From the NCBI RefSeq assembly GCF_000003815.2, contig NC_049986.1, positions 14,397,933-14,461,932 of the forward strand: a stretch of DNA of 64,000 nucleotides, read 5' to 3'. A program made the position numbers and the translations under genes. Source of the DNA: Branchiostoma floridae. Lineage: Eukaryota; Chordata; Leptocardii; Amphioxiformes; Branchiostomatidae. The notes beneath the pieces were generated by a model. It worked only from the letters and a program-made list of their open reading frames with translations, searched no databases and was not told the DNA's origin. This document shows positions 1 through 59,600 of the stretch, piece after piece (position 1 is the stretch's first letter; the number at the start of each line of letters is the position of its first letter).

Positions 1-2842
1 ATTTTAAGTTGAAACGCTACTAAGTAAGTATGAAAATGAATATCCATTCCTAAGCAAGCCATTGATAGGGAATTTATGCAGAAGGGATTGATGCGGATTT
101 TCATTACCCGAGAAAACGATGAACAAGAAAGCCAACTGTATATGACGTCAGCAAAATTCGATAGCCCAGATCAATGTTTAGCATCTTTTTATCATCAACA
201 GATACATTCTCCTTTATACAATGGTCTTTAGATCCATCTGTTATTTTGGTCTATCGCAGTTTATGCAAAATGTATAGATAGGGCCGTTCAAAAGGCGATG
301 GGGGGCATATTCTGTCATTATTGCTTTTTTTACGACACCGCTTTTTTATTGCTTCTCTAAATAAAAGAAATTCACCCAGACATCAAGTCCATTGCTTCTA
401 TCTATAAGGTATTTTATCGTATATATCGCTTTCTTTATATATGACATATTTGTATAATACATCGTTAATAGGAGCCCTACAGACGGGACGGAGTTTATTG
501 GCCATGTGTTACTTTACAGCACTTGGCATTCTTGAAACAAACACAAACGACAGCTGTGTGAGTTTATGTCCTCCCAATGCGGCAGGCCGTTTTGACGCAA
601 CCACAAAGAATCAATGACCACAATACTTATAGTACATGCAGACTGTTTTATGGGTCCTCCGGGGCCCCAATAAACGTTACAACCTGTGTGGCCAATAAAC
701 GTCATTTTTACAGGGCCTTTGACGACCGTTTTTACTGCATCACAGACATACAAAGCATGACTGTCTCCATGCGGGATATAACGAGCTTCCCTCCGGACTC
801 GGCTGTGATCACGGGAAGATACCATTGCCTGGCCATTCATTTGGTCTATTGTTGCTTGGAGCACGATTGTTGTGCCATAATGTAAGGCACAATAAGGGAC
901 ACAACAGGAGTAGGGAGAATGGCTTATATCCATCATCGATAGTGGAAGGGATGGACAACAATGTTCCCCAACTTCTCTTTTTTATCATAATCTAACCTCT
1001 TTAAATTTAAGGGTCCGTCATGGATGGAGAATGGGAGGGAATGTTTATTGATGGACGTTTAAACATCCTCTTTACTTGCAATTGTCAGAGGATAAACATC
1101 GTGTGTGGCAGAAACTATGGGATCGACGACAATTTCTTCGATACGTTTTACCGTTTGGGTATATGGATACAAGTTACTACGCATAAGTTAGGTCTTTATT
1201 GATGGTAAGGCACCCTTTTGTCAAGTAATTTGAATTTAGAGACTGCATTTAGGCTAGAGTAGTCACATGTCAACATCAACTTTCATGATTCGACTGGATG
1301 CCATCAATCTTGAGAAGACCTCTACAACCCTGTTGTTTCAAGTTGATATGGTAGTATCATGGCACCCGTTGGAATTATGGAAGCTGATGTTATAGTATCA
1401 TAGAGCCAGACGACGTCGACCAATCAGATGACTCCGTATACACCTCAGAGCACCCTATACACCTCAGGGTGGGTCATTAACGCTATATTGTTTGTCCGTC
1501 TGTATTTCCCCTATTACTTGCAATTAGCCTGTGGAAAAGAATTTGCAATAAACTTATCATTATCAAAAAGAACCTTCAAAATGACTGACACTGCAGTAGC
1601 GCTGGCGAGGTGAGAGGGGAAAAAGTTAAGAAGTGGTCTCAAAGATGACATTTCTAATCCACGTCGGTAGAGGCGCCCTTAATTTCCAAACAGATGTTTG
1701 GTTTCCCCACACTTCAAGTTGTGCGTTTGTAATAGAGATACAAGGAAACTAAACCGTTGTCGTTGTAAACATTGTAAATGTTATTTTCACTTCACTACGT
1801 TCACAAAGAGAGAACCAGCAAGAAGGTGTGGCCTTGGAACTAGTAACAACCTTTGTCGAGTTTTAACGACAACGCTAACCGCTTAATTAAACACCGGTCG
1901 GTGATTATATGGACAGTTAACGACTCGCCGGTGATTACTTGGACCATTTCTAATGATCATTGATAACTTACCTGTGTTCATTGGGACCATTGTAAGAAAA
2001 AGATATCAGTAGCAGCAGCATAAAGCGCCGATGGACTGTATGTCCTGTATCATATCGTGATTCAATACCATCTAGATGACCTCTATCTTCTAAATCTAAA
2101 GGCTACGTGAGGAATAGTGCGTCTCTAACCGGAAGTGCCTATTGATCAACTCCGTCTTGGAGTGTGGTGTTTTGGTTTTATTGCCCACGCACTTACAGCT
2201 CCGTGCTTTCTATCTATTACCCGTGGAGGCCGGGGTACTCCGTAAGGCATGCAACGGCTCTTCACTAAACCAGCAGACGTGATCATACAAGAGAATACCT
2301 GTTGCTCATGTCCAACCATAACCGTCAGCATAGACCATGGACGTGACTTCGATGTTGTTATACTGGGCTGAGTAGTATTTATTTTCTTTTATTTATTTAT
2401 TGAGATTTACCACAATTGTGGAAGGATTGACAGAACAGGTGACTATCACCTTTTCAAGATGTCAACACGGAGACCATTCAGTAGGTTTGATCCACTCACA
2501 ACGGAAAGGACCGCTACTCTTTGCGATAAGTGTGGTGGGTTCTTTAACGTGGCGTGGGGTGTGGCTCTCCCCAAACACGGGACCTCCATTTACGCTCTAT
2601 TCGAGGGACGGCCCTAACTAAGGCTAGGTACTAATTTCCACCTTAATTAAGTGAGGAATGTTGTGTAGAGTGCCTTTCCTAAGGAGTAAGGGCACAAGAT
2701 CGGTGACATGGCAGGTCGAACTCGGGACCTCTTGGGCCTCTTGGGTCTGAGCCGAACACCTCAGTACGGCACACGACCCCACAAACCTGCATACCTATGC
2801 TGGCTATGCATATACAAGATTAGTCGTTTACCCTTATGTCTC

Positions 2843-2925
2843 GTTCATTTACATCTTTTTTTCACTTTCTTCCTTCATTTCTCCATTCCTTCTTACATTC
2901 ATTCATTCCTCAATTCCTTCCTCCA
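2843..2925. repeat. CT/ATTC-rich simple-sequence tract
   Basis: A pyrimidine-rich low-complexity stretch with repeated TTCC, TTCATT and ATTC words, including ATTC repeats around 2897-2910. It explains the leucine/phenylalanine/serine-rich short open frame that crosses it. No function is implied. Confidence 0.6.
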
Positions 2926-3682
2926 TGATATTCGGAGTCATACTCTTCCCACGCAGGACTATGGTAATTGTATGTGCCGACTGTATAAAAGTAAATAAAC
3001 AGTCATTCAATCATTCACACCCATGGGTACCTTTTTGACAGTGACTCAATCAGATAGATAAGATCAAAGATGGGTAGATAAAAGTCATTACTAAACATCA
3101 CTCGGACATGCCCATGTGGGCTCCGCTATCCGGGACGTCTGGCGATCACAGGTTTCGGAAAATTGGGTCAGGGACTCCATCATTCATTCATTGACTGTAC
3201 TCAGATTGTAAGTGACTTATATTAAAGTCAATTAACACATCTAGACATATTATAGATCTAGCACGGACATGCCCCTGGGTTTCATTTCGGAAACCCTTAG
3301 TGGCAATTCCCGCCAAAAAATTGGGTCGAAGAAAATGCGGGCTAACTCCAGCTGTGGCCGGACGGATTAACTTCAGATGTGGCCCCAAGCGGAACAGATG
3401 TCTACTTTTTTTTACCGCACTGAGATGTCTTCTTGCTTTACTGTTTCCGGTCCCGAGCGCGCGCTTTGGTGGTGAAGTCATCAATATCGCTAGCTTGGCT
3501 GGCTGTGACAGAGGAAATGAGAAAGTCGTCCTGAATTACTACTGGGTATGCTGAGCACCGGTAGCGTGAATTATCGCGTCTATCTGTCATGGTATGATAT
3601 GACTTATTACTAGTAATAAAGACAGATTTAGATCGCCGACTAAGAGGCTCACTCTCCGGATCAGATGTAAGATTTCATATTA

Positions 3683-3859
3683 NNNNNNNNNNNNNNNNNN
3701 NNNNNNNNNNNNNNNNNNNNNNNNNNNNNNNNNNNNNNNNNNNNNNNNNNNNNNNNNNNNNNNNNNNNNNNNNNNNNNNNNNNNNNNNNNNNNNNNNNNN
3801 NNNNNNNNNNNNNNNNNNNNNNNNNNNNNNNNNNNNNNNNNNNNNNNNNNNNNNNNNNN
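3683..3859. other. Assembly gap (177 Ns)
   Basis: A run of 177 undetermined bases. It may be an estimated-size scaffold gap, and nothing can be said about its content. Confidence 0.99.
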
Positions 3860-6800
3860 GCAAATTCCGTCATCATCATAATCATCAACTACAACAAATA
3901 GCCTGACCTGGCCAGGAAGAATAATCACATTATAAAAGTGACGCCCGTGAAATCGGTTGTTAGGGAGCGGCCTGCCCAAATCTAGTAAATATTCTCTAGG
4001 GCTTTAACGGTTCTGGTCGGAATGTACGCGCTAATTTTTTGTCGGTGCTGCCCGTCACTTTTATATCGTCACGCGGAGAGGGGACATACGGAAGGACTAG
4101 AAAGGTTGTAGATTTGTACATTCTAGGATTTCTGTCTCAACAAGCGAGGAAGATTAAGTTATCAAGTCCACAGATGCAACATGTGTTCACAGGTAGGCCG
4201 CTAGTTTGTTGTGTTTGCTGTTAATTTGTTGTTGTTGTCCCAATCTTTAATCTGTACTCCATTTTCGTCTGGTCACCTTTCCATCTTGCTCCAGTGTGGG
4301 TGCCGGAGTTGTATAAAAAAAAGAATGTGTCAAAACTGCTTTCTTTGGGGAAAATTGCCTAACGTGTCAGAGAAATAACCCTGTTTCAACTTTGTTACTG
4401 TAGCTAAAAAAAGTATACTCTTCACATTTATCAGTTAGCGGTTTTGTGTGGATGAGTGTGAGTAATTGTTTTGAAATGCCCTTTTTTCAACTTAACTACA
4501 ACACTTCTTGTCCACATGTTTCTCTTTTACAACTCCGTGTGCGTCTATTTTTTCCTAGGGGAGCCAATTTGAAAAGTAATGAAATTAGTCTAACCGCCTT
4601 TTATTTTCCCCACACTTCCCCCCTTCTGACTGCCTACACCCAGGCAGTGCGCAGGCCCGGTGTTCGGTATGCACAATCAATTTTCCAGCTCCGCTCATCC
4701 GGTTCACCTATCATATGGAATTCAATTGGCATCATATGTCCCGTCACAAAGGGTTGTTTTCTTCTCAACGGCTGTAAAAACACTTCAGAAATCAAGGCAG
4801 CGAACAGTTAGAGTTAATGTTTTCACAAACACTTGAGTCGAGGACACTGAAGTCAAAGTCGAAGTAGACTCTTATTGATTTCTTTTATTGCGGGCGCGGC
4901 GGCCAGGTCTATTTGTGTAGCCGTTGTGTTGGTGATGACTGGCTATTGCAACAGATGGCGAACTGATTAAAGTGTGTCGCAAAGTTGTCAAACAACCGAA
5001 TCAGGAAAACGTATGTGTCAGCGAAATCGTGCAAGGCGGTAGCATGGGCCAGGCAAGACATAAATGTTGTAGAGGTCGCAACCCAGTATCAAATACCCAT
5101 CATCGCATCCCTGCTTATCTTTTACCATACACGCCTATGTAGAGCCATGCTAAGTATGAAATAAGTCATACTCATAGAGAAGTTTTGTCTGAAGGCGGCT
5201 GTATTGTGATCATCAGTAGTTTGTATACGTGGCCTGCTCAGTTTAACGTGTCGGTCTTTGACATTATCGCTGTGTAAAAAGCGGCCTCATTAGATGTGGA
5301 GTCCGATAATTGGACGGGGGGAAGCAATGGGGCCAATTTGGCAGACTTGGGATATAAGGCAACATGGATTATCCATGACGTCACGTACAGGAAACAGTTT
5401 CCTCGGCAACACAAAGCCATTGAGTAAAGAGGTCGGAGGGATGCAAAGAGGGTCCCTAATACGCTTGCTTTTGGAGGTCTGTGTAAACTTTCATATTCAC
5501 GGCATCGCGGAAAGTGCCCGGGCTATTGTTTGTACGAGCCCGGCTTGCCTACGGGGTAATTCTGTAGTGCTGGTACGTGGTATGACATGACTCGACCAAT
5601 GTTAATGTAATAAATTCTACCACTCCTTTTTCTTACGGAGATTGATTGAAGTTTATTGATAGCTACCCGCATAACCTGTAGCTAACATACATGTCTGAAT
5701 TGCCCGTTGTAACGGTATGGTGTTTCATTGTTGACATACAATCATGCCCCAGTCCTGAGTTCTAATTAGTTTGGAAAGCGGATATGGGAGTATCAGAGCT
5801 CGCCCCCATTCAACTTCCCATTTTCACTCCCTGAAAAGTAAACACACGAGGAGAAAGTGTTTCATTGTCTCGAGTTTTTATGGTGGTCGTAACTTGCAAT
5901 GTGCATGGAGGAATAAAATCCCTTTGCGTGCCTCGCCTTCGATTTTGCTGTATCCTGGGTAATGAGGGCCCTTCTAAGCTGTCATTATGTTGTCAGCTGA
6001 GTCAATCGCCATGTCATAAACATTCACCATTCAAGTCGGGCATGATGGGATATGTAGCGGTGACTCTTTCAAAATGGCGCATGGCGGGAGCGGCGGAGCG
6101 TGAAACTTCGTCGGCAAAACTGCGAACTTCTGACGGCAGGACCACGCCAGTGCCTTCCTCATCTACAGCACAGGTAGGGGACACTGTTCTGCAACTATCG
6201 AGGACACTTTTTGCTATCATGCCCCTCCCCACTTGGTAAGTTTGGCGAAGTGTTCCCCCACGAAATCTCGGAAGACTGGGGCCGGACCCGTCAGTTTGGT
6301 TATGACCCGGGGCTATGCTAATGCCGCGAAGTTTTCATTATCAGTTTTACAGGCGCTGCATCATTGATTTCCAAACGCCTTACGCGGAAAGTGGAGCGTT
6401 TGTCCCCATTTCTCAGTGATCCGTGGTGGCTTCCCAAGTTAAGGAAAGTTGTAGCGCCCGAGTTGATGAGTGTTAGAAGTAAGTGAGCGGAATAGTTGGA
6501 ATGGCCCTTTATTCAGGACGCTGCTTGTATGCAATAAAAGTTGTCATTTGTATTCAAAGCGTCGTCCCGAGCTTTTCACAGCCCTTTATCATTCCGCTTT
6601 GTCCCGCGCAGTTTGCAAGCCGTCCCTGCAAACTTTTTTTGTCTTTTCCTGTCCGTTTCCTCTGAAGTCTGGGACGACTTGGAGTAATGAAAACTCGCAA
6701 GGGGGTATAAAAATCCATCATGGCCTCCTCAATCTGAACTTGACACCTCTAAAGGCGCGTGAAAACTGATAACACACTGCTGATGGGCCCCTCCCCACGC

Positions 6801-7693
6801 ACCAAATCTCTCACGTGAGGGGCACTCAATAGGGTCTTGTTTGAATTGCGGGGTTGGGAGTGAATAAAAATTACCGATGTTTGGATTGCGGCATCGCAAC
6901 GAGTGTAACAAAACACGGCGGGCGAGGAAAGCGTTGTCCCAGACAGTTTGATTACCCCACTTCGGAACAGTCTCCCCGAGTTTGTCACAGAGGCTTTGGG
7001 GGGAATTTCCAGGAGATAACGTGGGATGGGGCGGCATTGGTCGTCCTTGCCTAGGCTTAGAATTAATACGGCCTCTGAATACCGGAGTAGTATTATCAAT
7101 GGCATCATTATGTGGCTGTGCCGCCTGTTGAGTGCTTTGTGGGGATCTTGAATAGGTTCCGTGAAGGGTATATTCATCTGAGTTAATGTTTACGTTCGGT
7201 GTATAACTTAGCGAATTACATCCTTTAATGAAGCGCGCAGTGCCGCTGCTTCCCACGGCACACAGGCGCTTTGTGTTCTCTCGGCGCTGGCAATTTGGAA
7301 ATATAACCATCTTTTTCTCGTCCTTGACTGTTGTGTTTATATGACCCTGAGATTAATCAAACTTGGCCCGCGGGCAGTTAAGTTCTTTGTTCTCTCCTGC
7401 ATATGTTTTGAAGCGCCTAGCCCCGTCTGACATTCTTCTACGGATGCTTGAAGACGACTCACGTTTACAGTATGAAAGAATTTATTGTTCTGGTCTTTAT
7501 TTGCGGGCCATCTTTTGTTTAGGTTTATCTGCCCGACATGGCGTCTCTGTATTTCCGGTCGTCCATCAAAAGTGGCCTAGTCCTGTGCTCGGTGTCCCGT
7601 ATTACATTACAGCACTCCGCTGATGAATTCTCCGCACTTCAGCGCTCCGTGTCGGGGATGCGGAGACATGCAACTTGTTGCATTCATGTATTC

Positions 7694-10282
7694 TTTATGG
7701 CGGGTGGAAGGTACACATGGAATACATCACGGGCCATTCTTCCATCGCTCGCGTTAGACCACCTATCAAGATGATTGAAAGAATCTGCGTATATTTCCCC
7801 CGGGGTTATAAAAATCCCATACACGCAGCGGCGGGACAATGTTGCTTTTAGCCATATCCAACTTCGACGCCCGGAACATTCCAGTCTGTCTCCACCATGT
7901 CGGCAGGAAAAGTCATAAATAGAGAGTTCCGCGATTTTTACTGCGTTATTTGTGCATCGTACAGCTGCCGGGCGAATCAGAAAAATATAGTCTGGCTCGT
8001 AAATTTTACACAAGGAATCGAATGAAAATGTGTCTGGTAACTGTATTGCTGTCACGCAAGTCCTGTCGAGTTGCTGATTTTGATCGCACCATGTTTTTAT
8101 TACCTCCAGATGTGTGGATGTGTCTGTATAAGTATGAGTCATGTGATGGGCACCGGCTATAACTGTAAACAATGATCCTCACTCGAGCCAGAACTTTGTT
8201 GATTAAAGGTCCCAACTCATGTGTCCGTCAGCCACTTGTGCAAACAATTCCAACATTCTTACACCGTCTCGCTAGAGTGGCCCTGCTTACCTTGGACGTT
8301 GAGAGGGCCCTGGAATTTTATTACCTAAAGCGTTCTCTCAACGTTTTTGTCGAGCGCGTGAGAACCGACCCACTGCATATGGATGAGCGACTTTTATGAA
8401 TGCGTCCGCTCCGCGTAATAAGAAGGAACCGAACAAATGCCTCTTTCTTCCCCCCTTTGAAACTTAATGGCGCCATTATGAATTCGTTCCATCTGGGCTG
8501 TTGTTAAAGGGCTCTCCAGCATAATCCGCCCCAGAAAATTTGGGAAACTAAAACCAGACCGGCGGAGGATTGTTTCGCCGGGGCGTCATGAGCGCAACAG
8601 TTGAGGTAAATTTGATTACTTTTCCTTCCGCTCATTTTGGCGATGCGTCATTAGACTTCGCAGATGGTTTCGAAATTCAGCACGGTCCAGATCCGCGAGA
8701 TGAGACCATTCCGAAAGATAAGGGGGCAATTTGGCCGAGCTGTAGTGTAGCGGCAATCAGTTACGGAGCCGGGGCACAGTGTGGAGAGTGGAGGGATTTT
8801 TATGATATGTGTTGGCACGGCGGAATTGTGCCAACGTGCGAGCAAGTTTGATGGCGGAAAGCGGCGCGCTGTTCCTTGTCAGTTGGGACACGTTTAAGGC
8901 ATCAGCTTTCCGTGATTTATCGGGGCTGCGCTACCCCGGTGTCGGAGCCAGCCCTGCTCTTGTTTACTTTATTACCAGAGTAATGGAATGCCCAGCCTAG
9001 CAGAACATCCCACCGCGTCTAATTGTCTCGCCTTTTATCGGACCTGCTTGATGCATAGAGAGGTCCATTTGCACGCTTATTGCATCTCGCTCTAGCAAAG
9101 GTACTGTGTACAAAGGCCCCTTTGTTCTTTCCTGAGCCCTTGCATCTTTGAAACGGCGATTTTATCACTCTATTGAACTAACGACTAACAAATGTGACCC
9201 GACAGGATGGTTATTTTCTTTTCTGTCATCTGCATACGCGGATGCCAAAACCGCCGTCTTCGGTTACCAGGTCTGAGTCCGGCTGTGGCAGCCGTGCCAT
9301 AAACCCCTTCCAAACACTGTCGCTCCGTATTGTGTTTTTATTGCCATCAGGTTACGACCCATCGTAAAATGCAAATACGACAAGTTGGGCAATTTTTCTA
9401 TCTTGGGTCTTTTAATGACCGCCTTATATGGCGTGCTTAGTCTTGTGTGCCACGGGTCAATTGCCGTGCCGTGTGAAACTTGATAGTAGTTATTCTCAGG
9501 GAGCATTGCCCTAAAGTCATCCACGATCCATGAGGCTCTCCTGAATTGCAAACACCGCCCGCAGTGCTCGGCCGCGCCGCCTTCGCCGCGTCACGATGAA
9601 TCCGCGCCCGAGACCGACCCCGTTCCTCCGCTCCCCCGGTAAGCCCGTCTCTTCTTCCGTAGACATGCTGTCTGTGGCGTAGTGCTGTCGTTAGTGGTGG
9701 GTGGGGGAAGGACGGCGTTACGAGCCCGTCTGAGACTGGGTAGCGAGGCCGCGGGGTTTTATGGCGGTTGTAAACAGAGAAGCGAAGCGTGTACATGCGG
9801 TGTGTACTTAAGACCCGGGCTGGCTGGATGAATGACACTCCAAGTTAGTTTGAGGCGCGCAGTACAGAGGCTCCCATGGGGAGACATGTCGAAGTTCATG
9901 CGGTTTAGGAGATGTTCAGACACATTTCGGCAGTCTAGACGACGTCGGGTCATGCCCCACATCTCCGCACTGCGTTGCATGTAATTTAATTGCCCGGTGT
10001 AACCACTGCGCCCCGAGCTCCGTACAGCGGGAGGGCAGACCCGCCGGGGCCGGGGGCCGGGGTTTCTGGTCGGGAAGCCACTTCTGACCGCCCGAGACAG
10101 TCTTGGTGGGGAGGGGGATCCCGGGTAGCCATAAAATCGCGATTCTCAGGAACATCAATGCAATTACTAATGAGCAGTGCAGCAAGGGATCTCATTACTG
10201 TTTGCCAATCGATTTGGTCACCCGAGGCAGTTAATCTTTACTTTGTGACGTCACTCGATGCTCTAATTGACGTGTTTATGGC
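7694..10282. promoter_or_regulatory. Cluster of caudal/posterior-Hox type TTTATKGC sites
   Basis: Exact matches to TTTATGGC or TTTATTGC, counting both strands, occur at 7694-7701, 9296-9303 (reverse), 9337-9344, 9758-9765, 10128-10135 (reverse) and 10275-10282. A related TTTATGGG lies at 10776-10783. Outlying TTTATTGC copies lie at 345-352 and 4884-4891. This word matches the known Cdx/Hox9-13 preference. Six copies in 2.6 kb is far above the roughly 0.2 expected by chance for two 8-mers on both strands, although I picked the motif after seeing it. The cluster sits 1-3.5 kb upstream of the homeobox gene start codon, so an enhancer role is plausible but inferred. Confidence 0.35.
9551..9640 (+). 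promoter_or_regulatory. CpG-rich patch ending in a splice-donor-like site
   Basis: A short G+C- and CpG-dense stretch inside AT-richer DNA. It contains an ATG at 9595-9597 with 14 open codons, then a good donor sequence (G|GTAAGC) at 9638/9639. It could be a 5' exon and promoter of the homeobox gene. Splicing it to the acceptor at 11154/11155 would not keep the main reading frame, so it would be untranslated leader or an upstream ORF. This is speculative. Confidence 0.25.
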
Positions 10283-11223: not shown

Positions 11224-14200
11224 ATGAACAGAGCTGGACCTGGCTGCAGCCCACGGAAGAAAGGTGAATCTGCGACAGGCAACAGTAACAAGACTTTGAA
11301 CACTTCTCCCGCCAAGAACAAAGCGCCCACCAACAGTACTAGTGTTCCCAAGTTGGGACGACGCAAACAGGTTCTGCAGCCCAAGGCGGACCCAGACGCA
11401 ACAACAATAGGTAGTAAGTCTCCCTCCGTGAACAAAGATTCCAGTGCCATTAAAAGCGAACAAAGACAATTATCCGAGCTTATAAGAGGACACTTCCATT
11501 ACGAGGGCAGTAGTTCAGAACACGACGAGTTAGTCAGAAGGTCGCCACGATTCAAGGCGGATCTAAGTACAACTTCTCAGGACAATTCAGGAGCTGATAG
11601 TGACATTAAGGGTTCTGTGATTTCTGTGACAGGAAGCACGGTAAGCCCCAGGAAGCTGCAAGACCTGGCCACAGCTTTTCAGGTCAGAATAACAAAGATA
11701 GCCTCTCCCGGTAAGGCTGCTCCTGCGGACAGAGAAACGAAGGGTCCGAACAGAAAAACTCTGGGACAGAAACGGCCAGCAAGTAGGTCACCATCCACGA
11801 AACGACAGAAAAAGAAGTCCAAGAAAGTTGAAGACAATACAAAAGTTGACAACAACACATTTAGTCAAATAAAAAAGGCCAGAGGTTCTAGTAAAGGTAG
11901 AAAGAAGACAGAGCAAAAGCAACAAGTTGAACAAGAAAGGAAGGACACCGAATGTGACATATCGTCAAGCGAGACTGTGCTGAATACAGAAAAAAGTGCT
12001 GAAATAAGCGATAAGTTGAAAAAGAAGCCCATAGTTCTGCTAAGACGACTGAAGCAATACCACTTTTCGAAGGAGGACAATAACACAACAGAGATTAAGT
12101 CTGAAGAGAGCATCACTGATATTCAATCAAAAGAAGAAGACCAAGACACAATTGAAGAAGACCAAGACACAGCAATAGAACGCGTTAAAAGGAAATTAAG
12201 TTTCGAGGAAGGTGATCACCTTGTTGAAGACAGTGTTACGTCAGACTCGGCAAACGTGGACAGCCATTCCGAACAGACGAGCGAGTTAGAACAACAGGAC
12301 GAAACACATCACGAAGTGAACACCGAGCCTTCTAGCGATTCCGCACAAAATTGTGAAATTGTACTGGAGAATAAAGATATCCGTAGTGACACAGACAGTC
12401 ACATTACTGCCGAGGATACAAGTTGCAAACTTCCTACTAACGTCATTGAGCCAAGTACAGCACAGGAACCAATGAGTGCAGAGGACACTGTCCAGGAAGC
12501 AGACACAGTAGCAATCACCATGTCTGAAGAGATGGTCAAGAAAGACTTAGCCGTGTCCCAGAAGGAGACACCTGTCCGGAGCCCATCCCCTGCGGTCGGA
12601 TCTACAGATGATGTATCCAAGCCATTAAGATTTCATGACTCACAGATGCCGATGAACGCGGACAAAATAGAACTGAAATTGGACGAAGTCCCAGAAGCAG
12701 ATATCAACGGCGCAGATCAAGACGTTGAAAACGTTCTCCACACTCCACAAGGAGCTGATGACTACTGTTTACCCCTCGTTACAGATAGAGATTCTACGGT
12801 AACGACTGAAGAATCGCGCGTGCCAGGCCCGATCTCCCACCTGCCCGACAGCTTAGAGAGCTGTAGTGTGGAGTCTGAAGGGACCAACGACGCGAGTATG
12901 CCTGCAACAATCCCCGCATCCGAGGAACTGGGGAAGGAGGTGGAAGATGCAGAGCAGAGCAGCACCAGAGACAGTCATTCCAATCATACCATCCCAGAAC
13001 CGGCAGAGTTGCCCAAACCTGTGGTGAAGGAGAGGACGAACAGGAGGAAGGCGAAGTGCCCGGCAAAGATTCCGAGACAGGAGATTATGCTGGAGCACCA
13101 CGACGCTTCCTTCGAGCTCGACGACCACGAAGGAGACATTCCAATGGACGAAGATGAGGAAGAACGTCGGTTCATGATGGAGATGGGAGAGGAGGACATG
13201 AATGACGAAGAGCATTGGATGGAGGATGCAGTGGAGGAGGTGCGCAGCCGGAAGGGCCGGCGCAAGGCCACGACGCCCCGCCCGAACAGACAGGCCGCCA
13301 GCCCGGGACGTCACGACGTGGCCTACGTGTCCTTAAACGAGGCCAACCCACCTGTGCGGCATCTTCTGAACCACGAGTCGCCAGACGACGCCAGCGACGT
13401 CCAGCCCAACTCCGCCAACCAGTACCAGGCTTACCTCAGGGAATTATTACCCCCAATGGCAAATTCTGGGAGCCAGGGACCGACTTCGCCGCCGCCACAG
13501 GGCAGCGACATGCCGCGGCAGCTCGCCATGTACCCCATGCACTCCACAAGGATGCCTCGGCAAGACGAAGAATCACCCGGGGAGGAAGAGCGCTCCTCTC
13601 TCCCGCCGTTTGCAAGGAGGGTTGGCGAAGACGATAACCTACCGCCGAACTTTATGGATAACCGTATGAGGCAGCAGGACATGGGTGAGCAGCAGAGTCC
13701 AGAAGATGGACAACAAGGCAGGTACAGACGGGAGTTTCACCGCGTTCCTTACAGCAAGTGGGTGCTGACGATGCTGGAGCACGCCTATCAGGAAGGGATG
13801 GGGTACGTACGCAGCACGAAGAAGTTCGAGCTTAGCATGGCGACAGGCCTGTCTTCTCGGCAGATCAAGGTTTGGTTCCAAAACAGGAGGGCAAAGGACC
13901 GTAAGCTGAAGAAGAGGGGAAAGTTGCCGTTCAAACCAACGTTCAATCGCGGTAGGAGGTCGCACGAAGAAGAGCACGAGTCTGGAGACGGAGCCGAAGC
14001 AACCGAGTTTGACGTGAAATCTGAAGACGCGCCGGTCTATAGGAAGCCCGTTATTGACACAGACGGCGACGGGGCCGACAGGAGTCATAAACTGCAGATG
14101 CATGCACCGATGGTGACTCCAGCTACGCACAGCCAAGCTTCTGTCGCACCAGTTCACGTGCCAGCAGCAACTTCGTCCGAGAGTAAGGTTCCCGAACCGC

Positions 14201-17200
14201 TCAACCTCGTCCGTCGATCCAGCGACAGTCGCACCGACACCGTGCGAGCACGTCTCAAAGCGATGATGCAAGAAAAATCTGAGCCAATGCCACATCAGCA
14301 GTCAGAAGATCGCCGCGACGACCCGAACAACAACGCCCCTCTAAACCTTGTGGTGCCCAAGTCGCAACCTGAACAGCCCCCTTCTACGTCGGCTAGCAGC
14401 GCCAGTTCTTCTCCACCAAGTTCAGCTCAACAACAACAACAACAACAGATGGACCAAGTCAGGGCTGCCATGATGGGAGCTGCTGGAGCCGCTTCATCTC
14501 CCTTCATTCCCGTTCCAGGAGCCTTCTTCGTCCCAATGATAGACCCAGGATTCGTCTTCTACGGACAGCTCGGTAGCCACATCAGGTGGCACAACCCTCC
14601 AGGCGTGCAGGGAGCCGCCGACATGGCGCAGATCCGACCAAACCTTGCTGCTGCCGGGCCCGGCGGTATGATGGCCCAGGGCGCCAAGCTACCCACAGCC
14701 TCGCCAGGACAACCTCCGCTGCCTCCTCCAGATGAAGTCAAGGCTGCTCAGGCCAAACGTCATCTCCTTCTTCCAGGATACGGCTACAAGGACATGAGGA
14801 GCACACACGAACGCATCCGCACACCCAACCGCTACCGTACACCGTACACAGACGAGCAGACACAGGCTCTAGAGCACGAGTACCGCGCACACGGTGGGTT
14901 CATCAGCATCACGCGGAAGGAAGAACTCAGCAAATCTCTCTGTCTCTCCTACCGCCAGATCAAGATCTGGTTCCAGAACAGGCGTGCCAAAGAAAGGCGC
15001 CAACACAAGCGAGCTGCGAAAGACGGCTTGCCGTACGGCATGGGATCGCCGCCTCGCGACGGCACTTCGTCCAATGACGGCCAAGGGGACAGCATCAACG
15101 ACATGACCAGGTCTCTGACGTCAGACACCGACGTGGACAGACGCGTCATGGAGGACTTCAGAGATGATGACGACTATGATGATGATGATGACGACGACGA
15201 CATGATGGACAGATCGAGAGAATGGGAGTCGGGACCAGACACGTCTCAGGACAGCATCCACATGCAGGACGCACTGCAACCACCAACAGTACAAGAAAGT
15301 GTACCACAACAAGAGCAAGTAGCGGAACCTGCCATCCCTACAAGCCAGAACGTTGCCTCGTCTTCTGAAGAAAAACAGGAGCTTAACTTGTCGCAAACCG
15401 AGAAAGAAGCACAAATCGAGAAAGAAGCACAAATCGAGAAAGAAGCAGTGTCGTCTGCCAAACCAGAAGAAATAGCTGCTGTTAAGGACGACGACGAAGC
15501 CATGTTCTATGACGTAGACAGCGACCACGCCCTCCAAATAGTGGAAGAGCCAGAGGAGGAGGAACAGCAGATGGAGACTGTCAGCGCACCTAAGGTTGAC
15601 AAGCAAGACATCAGAAATGTGAATCCCGACATGACAGCTGTTGTTCCCCAGCCACCAGAGGTGTTCTTCCAGAACCTGGAGCTGATGAGGAGACAGAGGG
15701 TCGACTCCAACCGATCTCAGTACTCCAGGGAACAGATCAAGACTTTAGAGGCTGAGTTCAATGTGCACGCTGGCTTCATCAGCAGCAAGAGGAGGTCCGA
15801 GCTGAGCGAGTCTCTGGGGCTGACTACTCACCAGATAAAGGTCTGGTTCCAGAACAGACGAGCGAAGGAGCGTCGCCATATGCAGAAGTACGGAGAAGGT
15901 GATCCGATCGCACTGAGCTTCCTCACGCCTGGAATGATGGGAAAAGTGCCTATGGTTCCCCTGTCTCCCAACAGGCAGGCCGGCGGTCACCCCCGACTGC
16001 ACGGCACTCCGACAAGCCTGGGAAATGTTACTAAAGCTGGACAAAAAGATGGATACAACAACGTCGTTCGTGCCGCCATCTCTCCCGTCGAGGCAACAAA
16101 GCCAGGAGACATCAAGCTTGGCTCACAGAACCACGGCGTCGTGGTGAAGCAAGAGCCGGAGGAGTCCCGCGACAGCTACAGCAGCCCGCTCGGCCTTGAG
16201 GAGCCCCACAACTCGTGGTTGACCAGGAAGACGAGGACCAAATTTAGCGAAGAACAGATCCTAGTTCTTGAGACGGCGTTCGCCAACAACCAGTTTCCCA
16301 CCGGCTGGGTGAAAGCGCAGTTGTCTCAGGTCACCGGGCTCACAATGAGACAGATCCACGTCTGGTTCATGAATCGCAGGCAGAAGGAGAAACACTCCAG
16401 GAAGAGGGCCGGGCGCGCAGCTACAAGCCCGGGAGGCAGGGGCATGACGCCGTCTCAGTCCCGACGTGTCCACTGGAAGCAGCTAGCAAAAGCCTTGACC
16501 CCGGCACAGATCAGAGAGAACCAGGAAAGGCAGGCTGCTGCAGGAGTGACACCGCAAGCATTGCCTACCACCAGCGTTGTAAACCCGGCACCTGTCAGCA
16601 GAGCAGCACAGTTCACCGCTTCACCTGTCCATCTGCCAGCCCCAGCTACGACACCTCCGACTCGTCGACAGACTCCCGACACTCTCAAGTCCCTGCAACA
16701 AGCCAAACTGGCCGGTGGGGGCGCTCCTGACGCTTCCCCTGCCGACCAAGGGCCGATGGACCTGACCAAGAAGGACTCGCCCCGTGACGACAAGAGTGAC
16801 GTGGCCGACGTCGTGGACATGAGTGGGTCTCCTGTGCCGTTCATCTTTAAAGACGACAAGAAGTACATCCTGATCTGTGACGCGTTACGCCTGCTGTCCA
16901 CGTCACACCTCCAGCTGATGACGGAGTCCCTGCGCGCCCTGGATGTCTACATCCAGCGCTGCTCCGACCTAGACGTCACCAAGTTCAGGGTTCTGCACGG
17001 GGAGGTGCAGCACACAGCCGAGTGCTTCTCCATCGTCAACCTGGACCAGTTCTCCTCCCACCTGCCACAACTCAGGTAAACATTTATGAATGTTAGACAT
17101 CCAAGTTAAGAATATTCAAATACAAATTTAGTCTCTACAAATCGACACTGGATAAAAACTGAGTTTATTTCAGGACATTTCGAGTGACATTCATCACTCT

Positions 17201-18487
17201 TCTTCTTCTACTGACGCTGAAGAAAAGTGATGGATGTCACTCGAGACGTCCGGAAGTAAATCTCAGTTTTTATCCAGTTGTAGAGATTGAATTTGAATGT
17301 AGCCATTTAGTGTGAATGTTGTTGTTATGTTTGAAGCGTGAAACTCAGTAACTCACAACAGGCTGTATTATACATTTGTATCTTAGTCAGTGACAGTGCT
17401 CTTCTAACGTGTTTTGTCCTGCTAAGACCATGATGTGTGTTTGTTCTAACCAGGTACATCATGAAGCAGCACCGTAACGCACAGCCTCCTGAGACGGAAG
17501 TTGACGGAGAGCGGCGGTGTTACCTGCGTGCCGCCTGGGGAGGGAAGGACGCGGAAGAACCCAAGGAGAAGCCGAGGAAGGAGCGTCAGCGCCACGTGTC
17601 TCCCACCACCGGTGCCTTGCCGCCCAGCTCCATCATGAACGCCACCCCACAGCTGCAGCAGACTCACCCCATCGTCATCCCCCCAGGGCTGTCCGGAGCG
17701 TACCCCTTCGGACTGGCGCAGCCCGGGATGGGGCTCCCCTTCCCCATGGCCAAGGTGTCGGCCGTGCCGTCTTCCTACCAGTCCGGCCTGGTGAGCAGCG
17801 CCGCCAGCAGCCAGGCAGCTGTCCGGATCTCGTCCGTGTTCTCGCTCAGCCAGGCTCAGGGAGGAACAGTAGGAAAGGACACAAGTATAGGTCAGTCTTT
17901 TTATATACAGATAGGAGATAAAACATTCATTTTACTTTTAGGCGGTCAACTGTGAAATGTTGATCCATTTATTGCACAAAAATGTTCGTCATCCAATTGT
18001 TTACCATCGTCATCTTTATTGTTGGAGCCCCCGCTGACCAAATGCTGATCGATGTAATTAGTTATAAAAAAAACTTTTGATGTATCGTAAAAGTTCCACA
18101 AAAGTGGTTGTTTGAAATGCTGTGCTTTGCTCATACTTAACAAAAATATCTTTTGTTTCACTCCTTGCAGTATCCAGTAGGAACGAACACGTGAGTCGTC
18201 CACGCATGCGCTTCACCCAGGACGAGGTGGAGGTTCTGGAGGGAGAGTTCCAGCGCACGCCCTGGCCGGACGGGTACGTGCCGTACGAGCGTCGGACCGA
18301 GCTGGCCGTGCAGCTGGGAGTCACCAAGAGCCGCATCGACGCCTGGTTCAACCACAGGCGCACCAAGGAGAAGTACGGCCCGAGGTCCCAGTCTCGCGAG
18401 ATGAGAGAGTCCGGCACCCTGGAGGACGCTACGTCATCATCGAAGCCCGTGACGTCAGAGCCGATGGCCAATGGTGCAATGAGCTAA
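11224..18487 (+). CDS. Multi-homeodomain transcription factor with five homeodomains (Mux-like)
   Basis: Coding exons 11224-17075, 17454-17890 and 18171-18487 join in phase (AG|G, then G|TA) and give 2201 residues. The ATG follows an in-frame TGA at 11212. An acceptor-like site ends at 11154, and 11101-11154 could be a 54-bp leader intron. The first 830 residues are disordered, rich in Ser/Glu/Asp, with a basic KRQKKKSKK stretch. Homeodomains lie at residues ~836-896, 1201-1261, 1493-1553, 1667-1726 and 2104-2167. The first three keep WFQNRR, the fourth has WFMNRR, and the fifth has WFNHRR, which lacks the near-invariant Asn51. Three CtBP-type motifs (PLNLV at 992 and 1039, PMDLT at 1844) suggest a nuclear repressor. 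No zinc finger is visible, unlike vertebrate ZHX. I recall amphioxus Muxa/Muxb as multi-homeobox genes but cannot say which one this is. Confidence 0.9.
12133..12174 (+). repeat. In-frame 21-bp tandem duplication in the homeobox gene
   Basis: Two adjacent 21-bp units encode EEDQDT plus one variable residue. They lie in the acidic disordered N-terminal region of the multi-homeodomain protein. Confidence 0.8.
13729..13911 (+). other. Homeodomain 1 (residues ~836-896)
   Basis: Helix 3 reads RQIKVWFQNRRAKDRK, with Gln50 and Asn51 intact. Counting from the first-helix leucine to Trp48 shows one extra residue, in the loop between helices 1 and 2. Helix 1 is unusual in having Trp (SKW) early in the helix. 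A basic tail (KLKKRGK) follows. Confidence 0.9.
14428..14448 (+). repeat. CAA/CAG run (Gln7) in the homeobox gene
   Basis: Six CAA codons and one CAG encode seven glutamines in the linker between homeodomains 1 and 2. It is a short polyglutamine tract that is likely to vary in length. Confidence 0.85.
14824..15006 (+). other. Homeodomain 2, caudal-like (residues ~1201-1261)
   Basis: Helix 3 reads RQIKIWFQNRRAKERR. By eye the domain resembles Cdx/caudal homeodomains, with YR..YTD.Q near the start, RK.EL in helix 2 and KIWFQNRRAKER in helix 3. It has the same one-residue loop insertion as homeodomains 1 and 3. All DNA-contact residues look intact. Confidence 0.9.
15163..15201 (+). repeat. GAT/GAC run encoding a poly-aspartate tract
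   Basis: Thirteen codons, twelve of them Asp and one Tyr, make an acidic block between homeodomains 2 and 3. Confidence 0.85.
15400..15447 (+). repeat. In-frame 18-bp tandem repeat (EKEAQI)
   Basis: Two complete 18-bp units and a 12-bp partial third encode EKEAQI EKEAQI EKEA. It is a charged, probably helical stretch between homeodomains 2 and 3. The units are identical, so the expansion looks recent. Confidence 0.9.
15700..15882 (+). other. Homeodomain 3 (residues ~1493-1553)
   Basis: Helix 3 reads HQIKVWFQNRRAKERR. It shares the AGFIS / GGFIS loop pattern and the one-residue insertion with homeodomain 2, so the two probably arose by tandem duplication within the exon. Gln50 and Asn51 are intact. 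Confidence 0.9.
16222..16401 (+). other. Homeodomain 4 (residues ~1667-1726)
   Basis: Canonical 60-residue length, with helix 3 reading RQIHVWFMNRRQKEK. Asn51 is kept, but position 50, which sets specificity, is Met instead of Gln. The sequence between helices 1 and 2 (NNQFPTGW) differs from domains 1-3, so this domain has a separate or much more diverged history. Confidence 0.9.
17132..17286. mobile_element. Foldback (MITE-like) element in intron 1 of the homeobox gene
   Basis: The left arm starts TCTCTACAA and continues through ACTGGATAAAAACTGAG. The right arm is its reverse complement and ends TTGTAGAGA. The left copy has about seven extra bases inside the arm. Pairing continues inward (GAGTGACAT with ATGTCACTC; CATCACTCTTC with GAAGAAAAGTGATG). 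The whole 155-bp unit could fold into one long hairpin. I find no clear target-site duplication and no coding capacity. Confidence 0.7.
18191..18382 (+). other. Homeodomain 5, atypical (residues ~2104-2167)
   Basis: Encoded by the last coding exon. Helix 1 (TQDEVEVLEGEF) and the helix 3 region (KSRIDAWFNHRRTKEK) are clear. There are about four extra residues in the loop after helix 1 (PWPDGYVP). Position 50 is Asn and position 51 is His in place of the near-invariant Asn. DNA binding in the usual way is therefore doubtful. Confidence 0.85.
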
Positions 18488-37700: not shown

Positions 37701-40700
37701 AGAGATCTGCTTCTGAGATAAAATCATGAAAAAGTATGACGCAAAGCACATTTCCAAATGGGAGCGCAGTGTTTTATTGGCGTCTTGGATATTTTTTTCA
37801 AAGTTGATAGGAGGGGGGAGGGCCAAGCAAATTTTTTTTTACCTGGGGGGAGGGCCTAGCAAAAAAATTTTTACCTGGGGGGAGGGCCTAGCAAAAATTT
37901 TTTGACCCGACCCTCTGGCGACCGGCCCTCCCCCCTCACTAAACGCCGTACGGTCCCTAATGACATAAATGATAGAAGATTCGTTTTTCTGAAGTAGGTA
38001 TCTGTGCCATATCGAAGGTGTTCTCATCCTCTACTAAGTATTCTGTAAAATGCTCCTTCTTTATGCCTTTATTTGCTATTACCACTGGCTGTGACCTGAT
38101 CAGATTGTATTCCTCTTCACAGAGCAGTAATTTTTGACAAAGCTAGTTTCCTTTACCTGAATGCTTGCGTGCCAACAGTAGCCATTATTGCTATGGAACT
38201 GCCAATGTCAGCTTGTGAAGTACACCTTTGAACAGGACAAAAGCCTTTGTTTTGGTCAGGGTCATATTTCAGAATTATCTAACAACAAACATTTTTCACT
38301 GAAAGGCAGGCATCATGAACTTCACATTGCTCACTTGATGAAATGTTATGGGTATGACACACTTGAAAGTCTACTTAAAATACCTATTAGTATTGGTAAC
38401 CAAGTTGGTGGATTGCTATGCAGTATAGCCTGCTTCAAAATATTTTGATTTAGAATTAAGGAGTTCTTGACATAACCCTCTAAAAAGGTTTTGTAGATTT
38501 TGAATATCAAAAATATTTCCACATCCTTCTTCTTTCTCTTATATAATGCGTAACATTTATGCTAATTTTAAATTTTTTTTTTTGCTAAAAATTGTTCTTT
38601 TGTTTTGCGTCCTCCCCAGTACCCACATGGTAGGAAGGCAGGTTCAGATATGTACTGGTCAGTTCCAGCCTTCAACGATTACGACGACTTTCCTTCAGGC
38701 ATCATCAACAAACTCCCAGGTAAGACTGACTGTTAACAGTCAACCCTCAGTTCTAATTATATTAAATCTGACAATGACATGAGAAGTTAGTCTTAAGCAT
38801 ATCTTAATTAATGGATTTGATGATGTAGCTTACCTTCTTAAGACATCTTAGCCATAAAAAATGTCCCTCATTTTCTATGCCAAATTTCAGATTAGTTTGT
38901 AAAATCGTATGTTCACTTCTCCTGTATTACTTTTACCAATTCTCACTATCAGATATGGAAAGGATATCGTAGACCTGTTTTTCTAGCATGAGTTGTAAAC
39001 AAATTTATATCAACACAAATTGTAAATGTACAATGTTACTTTGCAATTGTATTACTCTAGGCATGAAGGACATGTCCAACAAGGCAAACCTGTCCCAGGC
39101 ACTAGACAGGATGCACCAGCTCTTCCCAGAAGCCTTTGACTTTTTCCCGACCACCTGGCGGCTTCCTGAGGAATTCCACCAATTCTGCGCGGAAGTTCGC
39201 ATCCTGAAGGAAAGACGTGGCAAGCGGTATAAACCGACGTTTATCGTGAAGCCCGACGAAGGCACCCAAGGCGGCGGGATCTACCTCCTACAGGACCCGC
39301 ATGACGTGAAGTCTATCGGAATGGTTCGCCCGGCCGTTGTTCAGGAATATCTCACCAACCCCTATCTCATAGACGGCTACAAGTTTGACCTCAGGATATA
39401 TGTGCTGCTAGGAAACATTGAACCTCTGGAACTTTACATCGGGCGGGAAGGCATGGCAAGGTTCTGTACTGTCCCATACCAGTCACCCTCACGAATGAAC
39501 CTTCACGAGTCCTACATGCACTTAACAAACTACTCTCTCAACAAGTACAGCGACGGATTCATCCATTCTGAGGACGGGGATATAGGTAGTAAGAGGACGT
39601 TGAGTAGCGTGTTGCAGAGACTAAAGCGGAGAGGCAAGGATGTGGACAAACTATGGAAGGACATTGAAGACATTGTCTTGAAGACAATCATAGCCATCTT
39701 ACCTGAGATCAAGACTTTCCACCATGTTATGCTGCCACCGGGGAAGACTCTTGGAGGACCTAAGTGTTACCAAGTAGGTTGGGCCTGGGTGCCATCCTAT
39801 ATACAAGTCTATACAATGTATACAATAGGTACTTTGCCTTCAACCTGGTGATTGTCTATGAAAGAGGGTTGATGGCATCTTGTGAATCATTGTATCTTGT
39901 TGAAAATTAGAAAAAAAGCCAGTAAAAAATCACACGTACAAAGTATCTCATTTGACATTAATGTCATGTTTTTTTGTACAGCTGCTGGGATTTGACATCC
40001 TGCTGACATCTGACCTGAAGCCCATCCTGCTGGAGGTGAACTCTAACCCCAGCCTGAAGATCGACTCGGAGCGCGAGGTGTCGCCGGGGGTGATGGAGTC
40101 CATCCCCAGTCCCGTGGACGAGGAGATCAAGGTGCCGCTGGTGCGGGACGTCCTGAAGGTCATGAAGCCACAGAAGAAGAAACCTGTCTCCAAGTCCCCC
40201 TCCAAGTAAGGCTGAAGGCATTGTATGGCTAATGATAGATTTACATGTAGAATACAGTGTACTAGTATTCCGTATCACCTTGTGTACCAACCCGACTGGG
40301 GGTCAGATCACCTGAAGGCCAGAGGGCAGTCCGACCTGTGGAAGGGCTGGAACCAAAAGTGATGCGGAATACACTGTGTAACATTGTATTTTGTCTATGT
40401 CATATCCACAGAAAAAATTGCGGATTTCAATGCAAAATTTGAGGAATTTTATGTTCTCAAACAAAAAATTGTAACAACATCAATTGCAATGTCCAAATCC
40501 AGTATTCAAATGGTGTGCATTCCAATCATTCTAGTAGGGAAGCCCATGCTATACTCTAAAATACAGGCCAGTCTGGAACACCCATATTGATTGTTACCTG
40601 GCCCTGGTATGACATGATATTAGATACAGGTCTTTTGATGTAGGATGATGATATCTATGTATTATGTTAGACTTGCCTGCTTTCATGAAGTGAAATACAC

Positions 40701-51288: not shown

Positions 51289-56189
<4,901 letters not shown>

Positions 56190-56677: not shown

Positions 56678-59600
56678 TCATCTGGACTTTTTCTTCTTCA
56701 TCGACTTCTGTGAAAGGGAAAGAGAGAGATTAGTTTGTAGAATACTACTTTAGAAATGGAGCATGCTGTATACATGACATGCTTTATCACAAAATGCAAA
56801 GGTTAACTAAATGATGCTCCTTTAGTTCTCACCTTTATGTCTCCTTTTTTCTCTGGGGAAGACTTCAGCTCCTGAAACTTACGGAGATCAGCAGCAAAAA
56901 GGACCTGGGAAAGGTTGAACAAAAAGCGTATCAATTCAACAACATACGGACCAGTTTAAGTACCTACATGTGACTAAGGATAAATCCCAGACTTGAGTTT
57001 TTTTACCATGTCTATAACCGGGTTTGAACATAGGAACAGGACTTACTGAATGTGCCCAACCAGCATAGGGGCCCCACAACTGTCTGAAGAAGTCACCTGG
57101 AAGGTAAAGACAGACAGTTATGAAAAAAGGCATCCAATCAAACCTAAACAAGTGATCACCTCAACAGAAGGGCCCTCTGAGCAATGTGACCACTTTTGGT
57201 AGTCCCTTAGATAGTTTCTTCTATACAAGAATCCTGTCTATAGTGACTACCTGTACACATAAAACAATTCTAGCAGCCCCCAACAGTCTTCTTGGGCAGC
57301 TTTGATTGTATCAGGAAGAAAGGTATCTCTGAAATGGCATTCTGCAGATTTTTACTGGTCTTAAAATGTATGCTGTACTTTTATACAAAGTCTGTTCTGC
57401 AAAATAAATAATTCCAGACTTTATCTGTAATACTATTAGTTCTCCCCACCTATTTCCTTGTAGGTTTTGTCAGTGAGTGTTTTTGTTGTGCCCAGTTTGT
57501 GCTTGTAGTCTCTGTTGACTATCTGCCAGACATGCGTGTCCACTGGGATGGCTCCTGTCTTATCCATGGACATCAGGCACACACAGTCTGCTACCTGACA
57601 AGCAGAAAATAACAATCATATGCTTGTCAATATTTCAATCAGGTTTTGCACACAACCACATTAGCCTGGGTACCATCCGGATAACGTTAGTAGTTTGCTC
57701 TGACTTTTATCATACACTCATTGCTGATATTCACTTATTAACTGATGTCACCACCAAACGATTTTAATTCACAGTTCCCCAGAAGGGTAGCAGAAGCGAA
57801 TATAGGAGTGAACTACTATCCGGATGGTACCCAGGCTACTACCAACAAGAAACATTGGTTTCAAGTTTCAACATACCAGTTCTATAGTGAAAACTGATAG
57901 GTTTGGGCTATTGATAGGGCTTGGTGCTGCCCTTCTTTGTGGTAAACAACTTAATGCAGCCAAGGCATTACTCATTAAAAGAGTGTCATTTTGAGAAAGA
58001 GTGCCATTTTGAGAAGCATATTCTATTCTTCAAAACTTTCTATGGGGTGGAAGAAACAAATTTCCCACCTTTGCTCCAACCCCACTGAGCTTTATGAGTT
58101 CAGCTTTAGCCTCTTCATAAGGCAGTGTCCTGAGGTTATACAGCCAACTCTCTCCCCCCTGCTTCATAATGTACTGGGCTGTCTCAGAGATGTACCGTGC
58201 TCTGGAAGGAACAGGGAGGAAAGGTCTGTGAAAAAACCATTCCACTATGGAGAGCTAAAAAAAAAATTTAAAATGTACTACCAGCCAAGAATAAACAAGA
58301 CAATGTGTTTTGATGATATTCATTTAAGGTGATGATGATGATGTTCGTCCATCGGGAGTCAATGAGTACTTAGGTACTTAGCCCATATTAGACAGGAATG
58401 TGACAAGTTAGTAGATTACTGTTGTACAAATACAACAGTAATCTACTGCAATATTCTGATTATATCTGTGCTGTATCATGAACAGCTGCTAAAAGTTTTT
58501 CCAATGCAACTGACACTTCCAAGATGTCAGAAAGCTATGAATATTAAGACTTAGAGTCCTTACATTTTCTGAAATGACTCTCTGAGTAGAACTAGAAGCT
58601 GATGCAAAGTCTTGAGGTTAAAGCCTTAGTATGACTATGAGGTTTAACCTACCTGTAACCAAAACCCAGTTTCCTCAGCCTTTCCTCCACACCTTTCCCA
58701 GCTAGAGCCGACACAGTGGGAAAGGCGTAGTACGTCACCCCGCACACTTCACACAGCTGCGCGCTGTACGCCTCACACAGTCGCTCCACCATGCCACTGA
58801 TCCGTGAGATGTGGTTATTGGAGGAACAGATGAAGGAGAAGAGGTTTTCCACCGGGTCCTGTCTCAACATACGGATCCCTGGAATAGAGGGAACAGTCAT
58901 GATAATTTTGATTCTATGATACGTGAATCAACATAGTTACATGAATGATGCTCCCGTATAATTGACTGATTGACAGGTAAGTGATAGAAGAAAGCAAGGA
59001 CTTAGTTGCATCTTGATTAAGTTGGGGACTAGTATACATGTCACCAAGTACAATAATTGGTGGATTGAGCGTATGAATATAACAATACTTAGGGTCAGTG
59101 ATTAATCTGAGTTTGTCATTATTGGTCACAGAATCTGTTCTAAAGGGTATGATCATTCGTTCGTTCGTTCGTCCCATAGCCTTTTAATCAGCCGTGGGCT
59201 GATTAATCAGCCGTAGGGGCAGCACAACATGTTGTGCTGTATCAATAGGCATTTTTTAGTCCCCTGGTGGCGCCTATCTCCTCTCCGGGGGGTATGATCA
59301 TGAAGGCACATAAAACTATTTGGAGCAGCACTTTGTATAGAAGACCACTTGGAAAACATACAAACCATGTACCTGTAAAGTTGGGTGACACTTGTTTGAA
59401 GTGTGGATCATCCTTACACCACTGTTCATACAGATCTGTTAGCTTCACGTCCAGCTGGAAATAGTCTCGCAGGATAGAGACCTCAATATTTTCCTCTGCT
59501 AAACCATCTTCTGTCTTCAGAGTTATCTCCTCTCCATCTTCTGTTTTTATCTTTGTCACTTTTGTATTTGAAGTCATAGCTTGTGTCATCATCTTGGGCT

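Follow-up and report, generated by a model that had tools for sequence, protein, structure and literature searches.

The closest described counterparts of the gene studied here are Muxa and Muxb, amphioxus orphan genes with several homeoboxes (PMC6118893, citing Takatori 2008; PMC numbers here and below stand for the excerpts consulted of those papers). The multi-homeobox genes Hdx, dve/Compass and Dux belong to the POU, CUT and PRD classes (PMC6118893), and the C. elegans genes ceh-83, ceh-99 and ceh-100 encode 5, 4 and 12 homeodomains, zinc fingers being unmentioned for them in the excerpt (PMC4448998). The present gene lies on the plus strand of a 64-kb stretch of the Branchiostoma floridae genome (hereafter the window; NC_049986.1, positions 14,397,933 to 14,461,932) and is predicted to encode a protein of 2201 residues with five homeodomains (HD1 to HD5). 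As an earlier note on this DNA had proposed, its architecture, that of an amphioxus gene with several homeodomains (five) that fits none of the standard classes, matches the printed description of the multi-homeobox Mux orphans (PMC6118893), a comparison made by description only, and the gene is probably one of the two catalogued, Muxa or Muxb. In a full-text search outside which subscription papers mostly lie, PMC6118893 alone combined Muxa, amphioxus and homeobox, which is no proof that the function is unstudied. To the published Mux text, in the excerpt consulted, we add the kinship among HD1, HD2 and HD3 (HD1-3), their probable kinship to Cdx/Hox homeodomains, the loss of Asn51 from HD5, and a set of CtBP-like motifs.

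The first coding exon is part of an open frame that runs from the ATG at 11224 through 1951 stop-free codons to a splice donor at 17076, with an in-frame stop at 11212 just upstream of the start; when 11224-18487 was shuffled base by base 200 times, no plus-strand frame exceeded 285 codons. Three predicted exons (Table 1) yield exactly 2201 residues, with the donor CAG/GTAAAC and the acceptor CTAACCAG/G bordering intron 1, and the donor TAG/GTCAGT and the acceptor CCTTGCAG/T bordering intron 2. Nine alternative GT/AG combinations are equally open in the ranges tried, and the exon borders are therefore predictions. The GC fraction is 0.65 and 0.63 in exons 2 and 3 versus 0.36 and 0.34 in the introns, and the predicted frame is the best of three for exons 2 and 3 when scored on the codon usage of exon 1, without inner stop. 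Note that the codon score cannot by itself prove coding, as an equal value (0.163) is reached by a frame of intron 1 that has 12 stops. Of the five homeodomains that Pfam identifies, exon 1 encodes four (E 1.6e-65) and exon 3 the fifth (E 1.1e-13), which bears out the earlier claim of five homeodomains in one frame across three exons. As exon 3 is situated 1.1 kb downstream of exon 1 and is joined to it by prediction alone, the locus might comprise two genes, one with four homeodomains and a separate one with a single homeodomain; we consider this very improbable, given that splice sites and frames are compatible across the three exons, that exons 2 and 3 stand out as GC-rich between AT-rich introns, and that HD5 is closest, genome-wide, to HD3 of the same gene. 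The 2201-residue, five-homeodomain gene model, as predicted from the sequence, is confirmed to be intact. Searched against its own genome, the 1951-residue exon-1 protein recovers itself at 4367 bits, all further matches scored being to the homeodomains of other genes, at 48 bits or less; no second copy of the gene was found with exon 1 (24 of 96 candidates scored) or with HD5.

To place the homeodomains, the genome was searched with the Pfam model PF00046, which returned at least 135 matches (150 of 246 candidates scored). Among the genes, named here by sequence reading, those of Hox type lie within 10.1-10.6 Mb of C16, and those of Cdx/Xlox/Gsx type sit together at 10.65-10.69 Mb of C7. From the 130 non-Mux matches, 111 distinct ones were read (112 entries, one doubled), and 10 entries were dropped: three duplicates, three TALE rows (another TALE row being kept), three rows of long insertion or odd length, and one broken row. 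The main tree is built on the remaining 102 rows and the five homeodomains, the second on 49 complete homeodomains. HD1-3 are monophyletic in both, with ultrafast bootstrap (UFBoot) supports of 96 in the 107-row tree and 94 in the tree of 49, and HD2 pairs with HD3 inside the group (87 in the 107-row tree). HD2 and HD3 are 55% identical and HD1 and HD2 47%, HD5 sharing 22-33% with the other four. A one-residue insertion in the loop between helices 1 and 2 fills its alignment column in 3 of the 107 rows, namely HD1, HD2 and HD3, the dropped TALE and long-insertion rows being outside this count; each of the three domains measures 61 residues, one over the 60-residue standard of ANTP-class Hox/ParaHox homeodomains. 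These sequence comparisons show HD1, HD2 and HD3 to be sister domains, for which the best reading is duplication of a single homeodomain within the gene.

The nearest outside relatives of this group appear to be of Hox/Cdx type. In the 107-row tree, posterior Hox rows stand next to HD1-3 (support 76) with the Hox/ParaHox group around them (path supports 39-94), and in the tree of 49 the neighbour is Cdx (85). The top outside match of HD2 is Cdx in the genome (55.8 bits) and CDX1/CDX2 in the PDB. Homeodomain positions 5, 47, 50, 51 and 54 make base contacts; HD1-3 carry R5, V/I47, Q50, N51 and A54, and thus keep the contact residues of the genome's Cdx (R5, I47, Q50, N51, A54). Unlike the Cdx and Hox rows of the genome, with one 60-residue homeodomain per open reading frame (ORF), the protein combines three of 61 residues with two unlike homeodomains. 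Several observations speak against the Hox/Cdx affinity. The approximately unbiased (AU) test does not reject trees in which HD1-3 are kept apart from the Hox-like group (p 0.352), the nearest outside row changes from posterior Hox to Cdx between the two trees, and the top PDB matches of HD1 and HD3 start with a tandem Engrailed construct. The helix 1-2 loop insertion is not unique in animals either, because SATB homeodomains of the CUT class have a one-residue (Gly) insertion there too (PMC3784565). The AU tests used full constrained searches, the search with HD1-3 excluded ending at its time limit; an earlier AU test that rejected three constraints at 5% was discarded, as its fast-search trees lay up to 129 log units below the best. 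SATB differs by Phe48 and a CUT/Compass-type domain, HD1-3 having Trp48 and no such Pfam match. Membership of Compass itself was rejected: Compass homeodomains carry ten inserted residues between helices 2 and 3 (PMC3784565), and the insertions here lie between helices 1 and 2. Assignment of HD1-3 to the ANTP class, Hox/Cdx type, is favoured but not proven. In the phylogeny of the domains, which the earlier note had named as a check, HD1-3 form one group near posterior Hox or Cdx, and HD4 and HD5 fall away from it.

Could the gene instead belong to the ZHX/Homez or ZFHX class and have lost its zinc fingers? ZHX1-3 likewise have five homeodomains and HOMEZ several, Homez shows that fingers can be missing (PMC2211742), and ZFHX3/4 (ATBF1) also hold several homeodomains along one long ORF. 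The Pfam Homez model scores 23 bits on exon 1, just above its cut-off of 21, with no single stretch passing alone; together with Homeobox_KN it is the only other model over cut-off, and both are related to the homeodomain. ZHX and HOMEZ, however, have another homeodomain type, ZHX proteins, which repress in transfection assays (PMC2893186), carry two zinc fingers, and ZFHX3/4 have zinc fingers among their homeodomains. Both classes are already present elsewhere in the genome, as a Zfhx-type ORF (L079; four homeodomains and C2H2 fingers) and a separate ZHX/Homez-type ORF (L080; five Pfam homeodomains and no Pfam finger in the ORF), and in both trees HD1-3 group with the Hox/Cdx rows, apart from the rows of L079 and L080. 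The helix-3 motif WFSDTRY, which we take to be a ZHX-type mark, is present in L080 yet in none of the five homeodomains here, and ZHX/Homez was rejected on this ground; ZFHX was rejected for want of C2H2 zinc fingers among the five homeodomains. We therefore give the loss of fingers from either class hardly any credence. No zinc finger was found by Pfam in the three exons and the C2H2 pattern scan gave zero, in line with the absence claimed by the earlier note, whose further statement that families with several homeodomains carry zinc fingers goes too far: HOMEZ, with its several homeodomains, is finger-free (PMC2211742), and L080, for that ORF only, shows none by Pfam, a finger-free array therefore not being unique in this genome. 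No match to POU, LIM or CUT was obtained to E 1 in the three exons, nor to a Compass domain at the same limit, the presence of a Compass model in the Pfam copy being unchecked.

Among the PF00046 matches listed, several homeodomains per frame occur in the present gene (four, exon 1), L079, L080 and L081. L080 (C6:23241500-23249500, ORF 2933-6151, plus strand, 1072 codons) may hold a further homeodomain at C6:23246682 (E 0.84); Zhx/Homez is listed among families without invertebrate orthologues in the excerpt of PMC2211742. L081 (C4:19714500-19723500, ORF 2181-7889, plus strand, 1902 codons) has two adjacent homeodomains without Asn51, many C2H2-like stretches by eye, and one Pfam finger match (ZNF142-type), below cut-off. 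On the minus strand of C4:692597-697725 (L154, L155), three partial divergent homeodomain matches in about 5 kb may be a tandem cluster or another multi-homeodomain gene. Neighbouring homeodomains of the present protein are 109-374 residues apart, in contrast to ceh-100, where they are tightly packed in a gene without obvious orthologues even in other Caenorhabditis (PMC4448998).

The two remaining homeodomains depart from the first three. HD4 has Met at position 50, found otherwise in 1 of 55 complete helix-3 sequences (Onecut-type by reading), and its affinity appears to remain divided among posterior Hox, Islet/LIM and DUX4. HD5 has N50, His in place of Asn51, and four inserted residues. 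Of the 55 other helix-3 sequences that are complete, 49 have Asn51; of the six that lack it, five come from the multi-homeodomain ORFs L080 and L081. This count concerns homeodomains read through position 51, about half ending at an intron before it and being uncountable; its pattern missed one L080 homeodomain with Asp at 51, and a Pfam-based census is less sensitive to domains without Asn51. In L079, 4 of 4 homeodomains keep it, therefore spare domains do not always lose Asn51, which tells against a general rule; its loss in this genome seems mostly, not always, to mark proteins with spare homeodomains. HD5 is predicted to adopt the homeodomain fold (predicted local distance difference test, pLDDT, 77, the input alignment comprising only these five homeodomains), and the best 50 of 382 Foldseek rows for this model are homeodomain entries going by their titles, none at E 0.001. 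Contact of HD5 with DNA may still occur despite the loss of Asn51, a point against its retirement from DNA reading. The earlier suggestion of a chain that reads several sites at once is retained for at most four of the five homeodomains, which look like ordinary DNA readers; HD5, without Asn51, falls out.

All five homeodomains may have come from one ancestor by internal duplication, HD4 and HD5 diverging fast, rather than by fusion of classes, an origin compatible with the repressor mechanism proposed below and to which we lend slightly less than even belief. The closest relative of HD5 genome-wide is HD3 of the same protein (35.3 bits, E 7.4e-6), followed by Engrailed (30.5) and HD4 (29.7). 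Neither a clade of all five homeodomains (AU p 0.235) nor one of HD1 to HD4 (p 0.308) is rejected, and the multiple homeodomains of Zfhx and Zhx/Homez are scattered in trees as well, presumably as an artefact (PMC2211742). A single origin is opposed by the separation of HD4 and HD5 from HD1-3 in both trees and by the genome matches of HD4, headed by other genes: posterior Hox (42.9 bits), Islet (41.3) and six more outside the protein precede HD3, in ninth place (36.8). HD5 falls among PRD-class rows in the 107-row tree (supports 29-70), contrary to its affinity for HD3 and again at odds with our preferred picture; its PDB matches are the tandem Engrailed construct, then Pax6 and Aristaless.

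Outside the homeodomains, the pattern P.[DN]L[STVC] occurs 3 times in the protein; 5000 shuffles average 0.22 occurrences, and 0.1% of them contain as many. ZEB binds CtBP via a PLNLS-PLDLS-PLNLS set (two PLNLS, one PLDLS; PMC2749851); ZEB1 is thus alike in its three PLDLS/PLNLS-type motifs and unlike in being a gene of the zinc-finger class. The Zeb-type ORF of the genome (L083, Zeb by sequence reading) has one Pfam homeodomain and C2H2 fingers, with PMDLT and VLNLS. Three points reduce the weight of these motifs: the class was picked post hoc, after the sequence was seen; PMDLT alone matches the form PxDL[ST], 2 of the 3 motifs ending in V; and the pattern also occurs once each in L079 and L083, with none in L080 and L081. 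The three ZEB-like CtBP motifs suggest repression. Patterns of the eh1-like, YPWM-like, WRPW-like, LxCxE and PPxY types gave zero hits in the protein.

The same chain might act as an activator, its acidic N-tail and HD2-HD3 linker recruiting co-activators and its array raising the affinity for clustered sites. Asp and Glu make up 19% of the N-tail and 27% of the HD2-HD3 linker, both disordered-like by charge and hydropathy, and against repression it must be said that such acidic stretches could equally activate. The three CtBP-like motifs argue the other way, acidic composition by itself is weak evidence, and we judge activation unlikely. The long disordered acidic linkers of the earlier note are upheld for these two stretches. 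By the same measure, the C-tail and the opening of the HD4-HD5 linker resemble disordered sequence too, but a folded-like character prevails in the later part of the HD4-HD5 linker, between HD3 and HD4 and, as a borderline case, between HD1 and HD2, where Asp and Glu make up 6-14%. Four weak repeat matches among linkers (E 0.11 or above) are not convincing. In the HD2-HD3 linker, three near-perfect 18-nt repeats (window 15394-15447) encode QTEKEA, QIEKEA and QIEKEA.

With middling confidence, we propose that this intact, apparently single-copy, Mux-like gene encodes a nuclear, multivalent repressor acting through HD1-3 on Cdx/Hox-type sites, with HD5 for protein contacts. The Cdx site is AT-rich; HD1-HD3, perhaps with HD4, would bind several copies of such a Cdx/posterior-Hox-type site, and the linkers of 109-301 residues that join HD1 to HD4 would favour clustered sites or allow separate ones to be bridged. 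HD5, no longer a standard DNA reader, would serve as a protein-contact module, and PLNLV, PLNLV and PMDLT would recruit CtBP, leading to repression of genes with clustered Cdx/Hox-type sites. Both multivalent binding and repression are what we infer from the sequence. A more far-reaching and quite tentative version, doubtful as it stands, is that a Cdx/posterior-Hox-type homeodomain was triplicated in one giant protein and further homeodomains were recruited or diverged, the last losing its DNA-reading residue, to give a single-chain 'Hox array' that would repress genes with clustered Hox/Cdx sites via CtBP.

The features of the gene and its neighbours are collected in Table 1. Residues ~1835-1968, which include the folded-like segment, matched no Pfam family (one query being approximate at its start) and gave one PDB match at the chance level of E 0.1; the exon-1 part has no second occurrence in the genome, and an AlphaFold model of the folded-like segment made without alignment is uninformative (mean pLDDT 38.6). 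Intron 1 contains nested inverted repeats (window 17120-17298; arms of 42, 26 and 20 nt, 86, 81 and 95% complementary) that look like a small hairpin-type mobile element. An assembly gap of 177 Ns starts at window position 3683, and searches for RNA families (at gathering score) and tRNAs gave zero in the window.

Table 1. Predicted features of the five-homeodomain gene and of neighbouring genes (positions in the window).
Feature	Position	Strand	Evidence
Coding exon 1 (1950 codons + 2 bases), with acidic N-tail, HD1-HD4 and a portion of the HD4-HD5 linker	11224-17075	+	open frame, splice donor, shuffles
Homeodomain 1 (residues 832-899), Q50 N51 A54, one-residue insertion in helix 1-2 loop	13717-13920	+	Pfam, PDB matches, trees
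Candidate ZEB-like CtBP-binding motif PLNLV (residue 992)	14197-14211	+	motif class per PMC2749851 (excerpt)
Candidate ZEB-like CtBP-binding motif PLNLV (residue 1039)	14338-14352	+	pattern
Homeodomain 2 (residues 1201-1264), helix 1-2 loop insertion as HD1; outside relatives CDX1/CDX2 (PDB), Cdx (genome)	14824-15015	+	
Homeodomain 3 (residues 1493-1557), helix 1-2 loop insertion as HD1/HD2	15700-15894	+	
Homeodomain 4 (residues 1667-1730), canonical length, M50 N51	16222-16413	+	
Candidate CtBP-binding motif PMDLT, then K (residue 1844)	16753-16767	+	pattern
Folded-like segment before exon-1 end (~residues 1860-1950)	16801-17075	+	seen only here in genome, no Pfam match
Coding exon 2, HD4-HD5 linker	17454-17890	+	splice sites, open frame, GC, codon score
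Coding exon 3: HD5 and stop codon TAA	18171-18487	+	splice sites, Pfam, codon score
Homeodomain 5 (residues 2105-2169), predicted homeodomain fold, N50 H51, helix 1-2 loop longer by four residues	18194-18388	+	
Tubulin-tyrosine-ligase-like gene, neighbour	38973-40206	+	
Tubulin gene (alpha-type by eye), neighbour	54535-55617	+	
OGG1-type gene, neighbour	59245-59964	-	

Proteins with several homeodomains are rare and their use is mostly unknown. Here, three near-equivalent Cdx/Hox-type homeodomains stand beside one apparently retired from DNA reading, in a basal chordate, which makes multivalent reading and the fate of spare homeodomains directly testable, and an orphan gene gains a likely ancestry. 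If the single-chain 'Hox array' were true, a basal chordate would possess a built-in competitor of its own Hox/ParaHox regulation.

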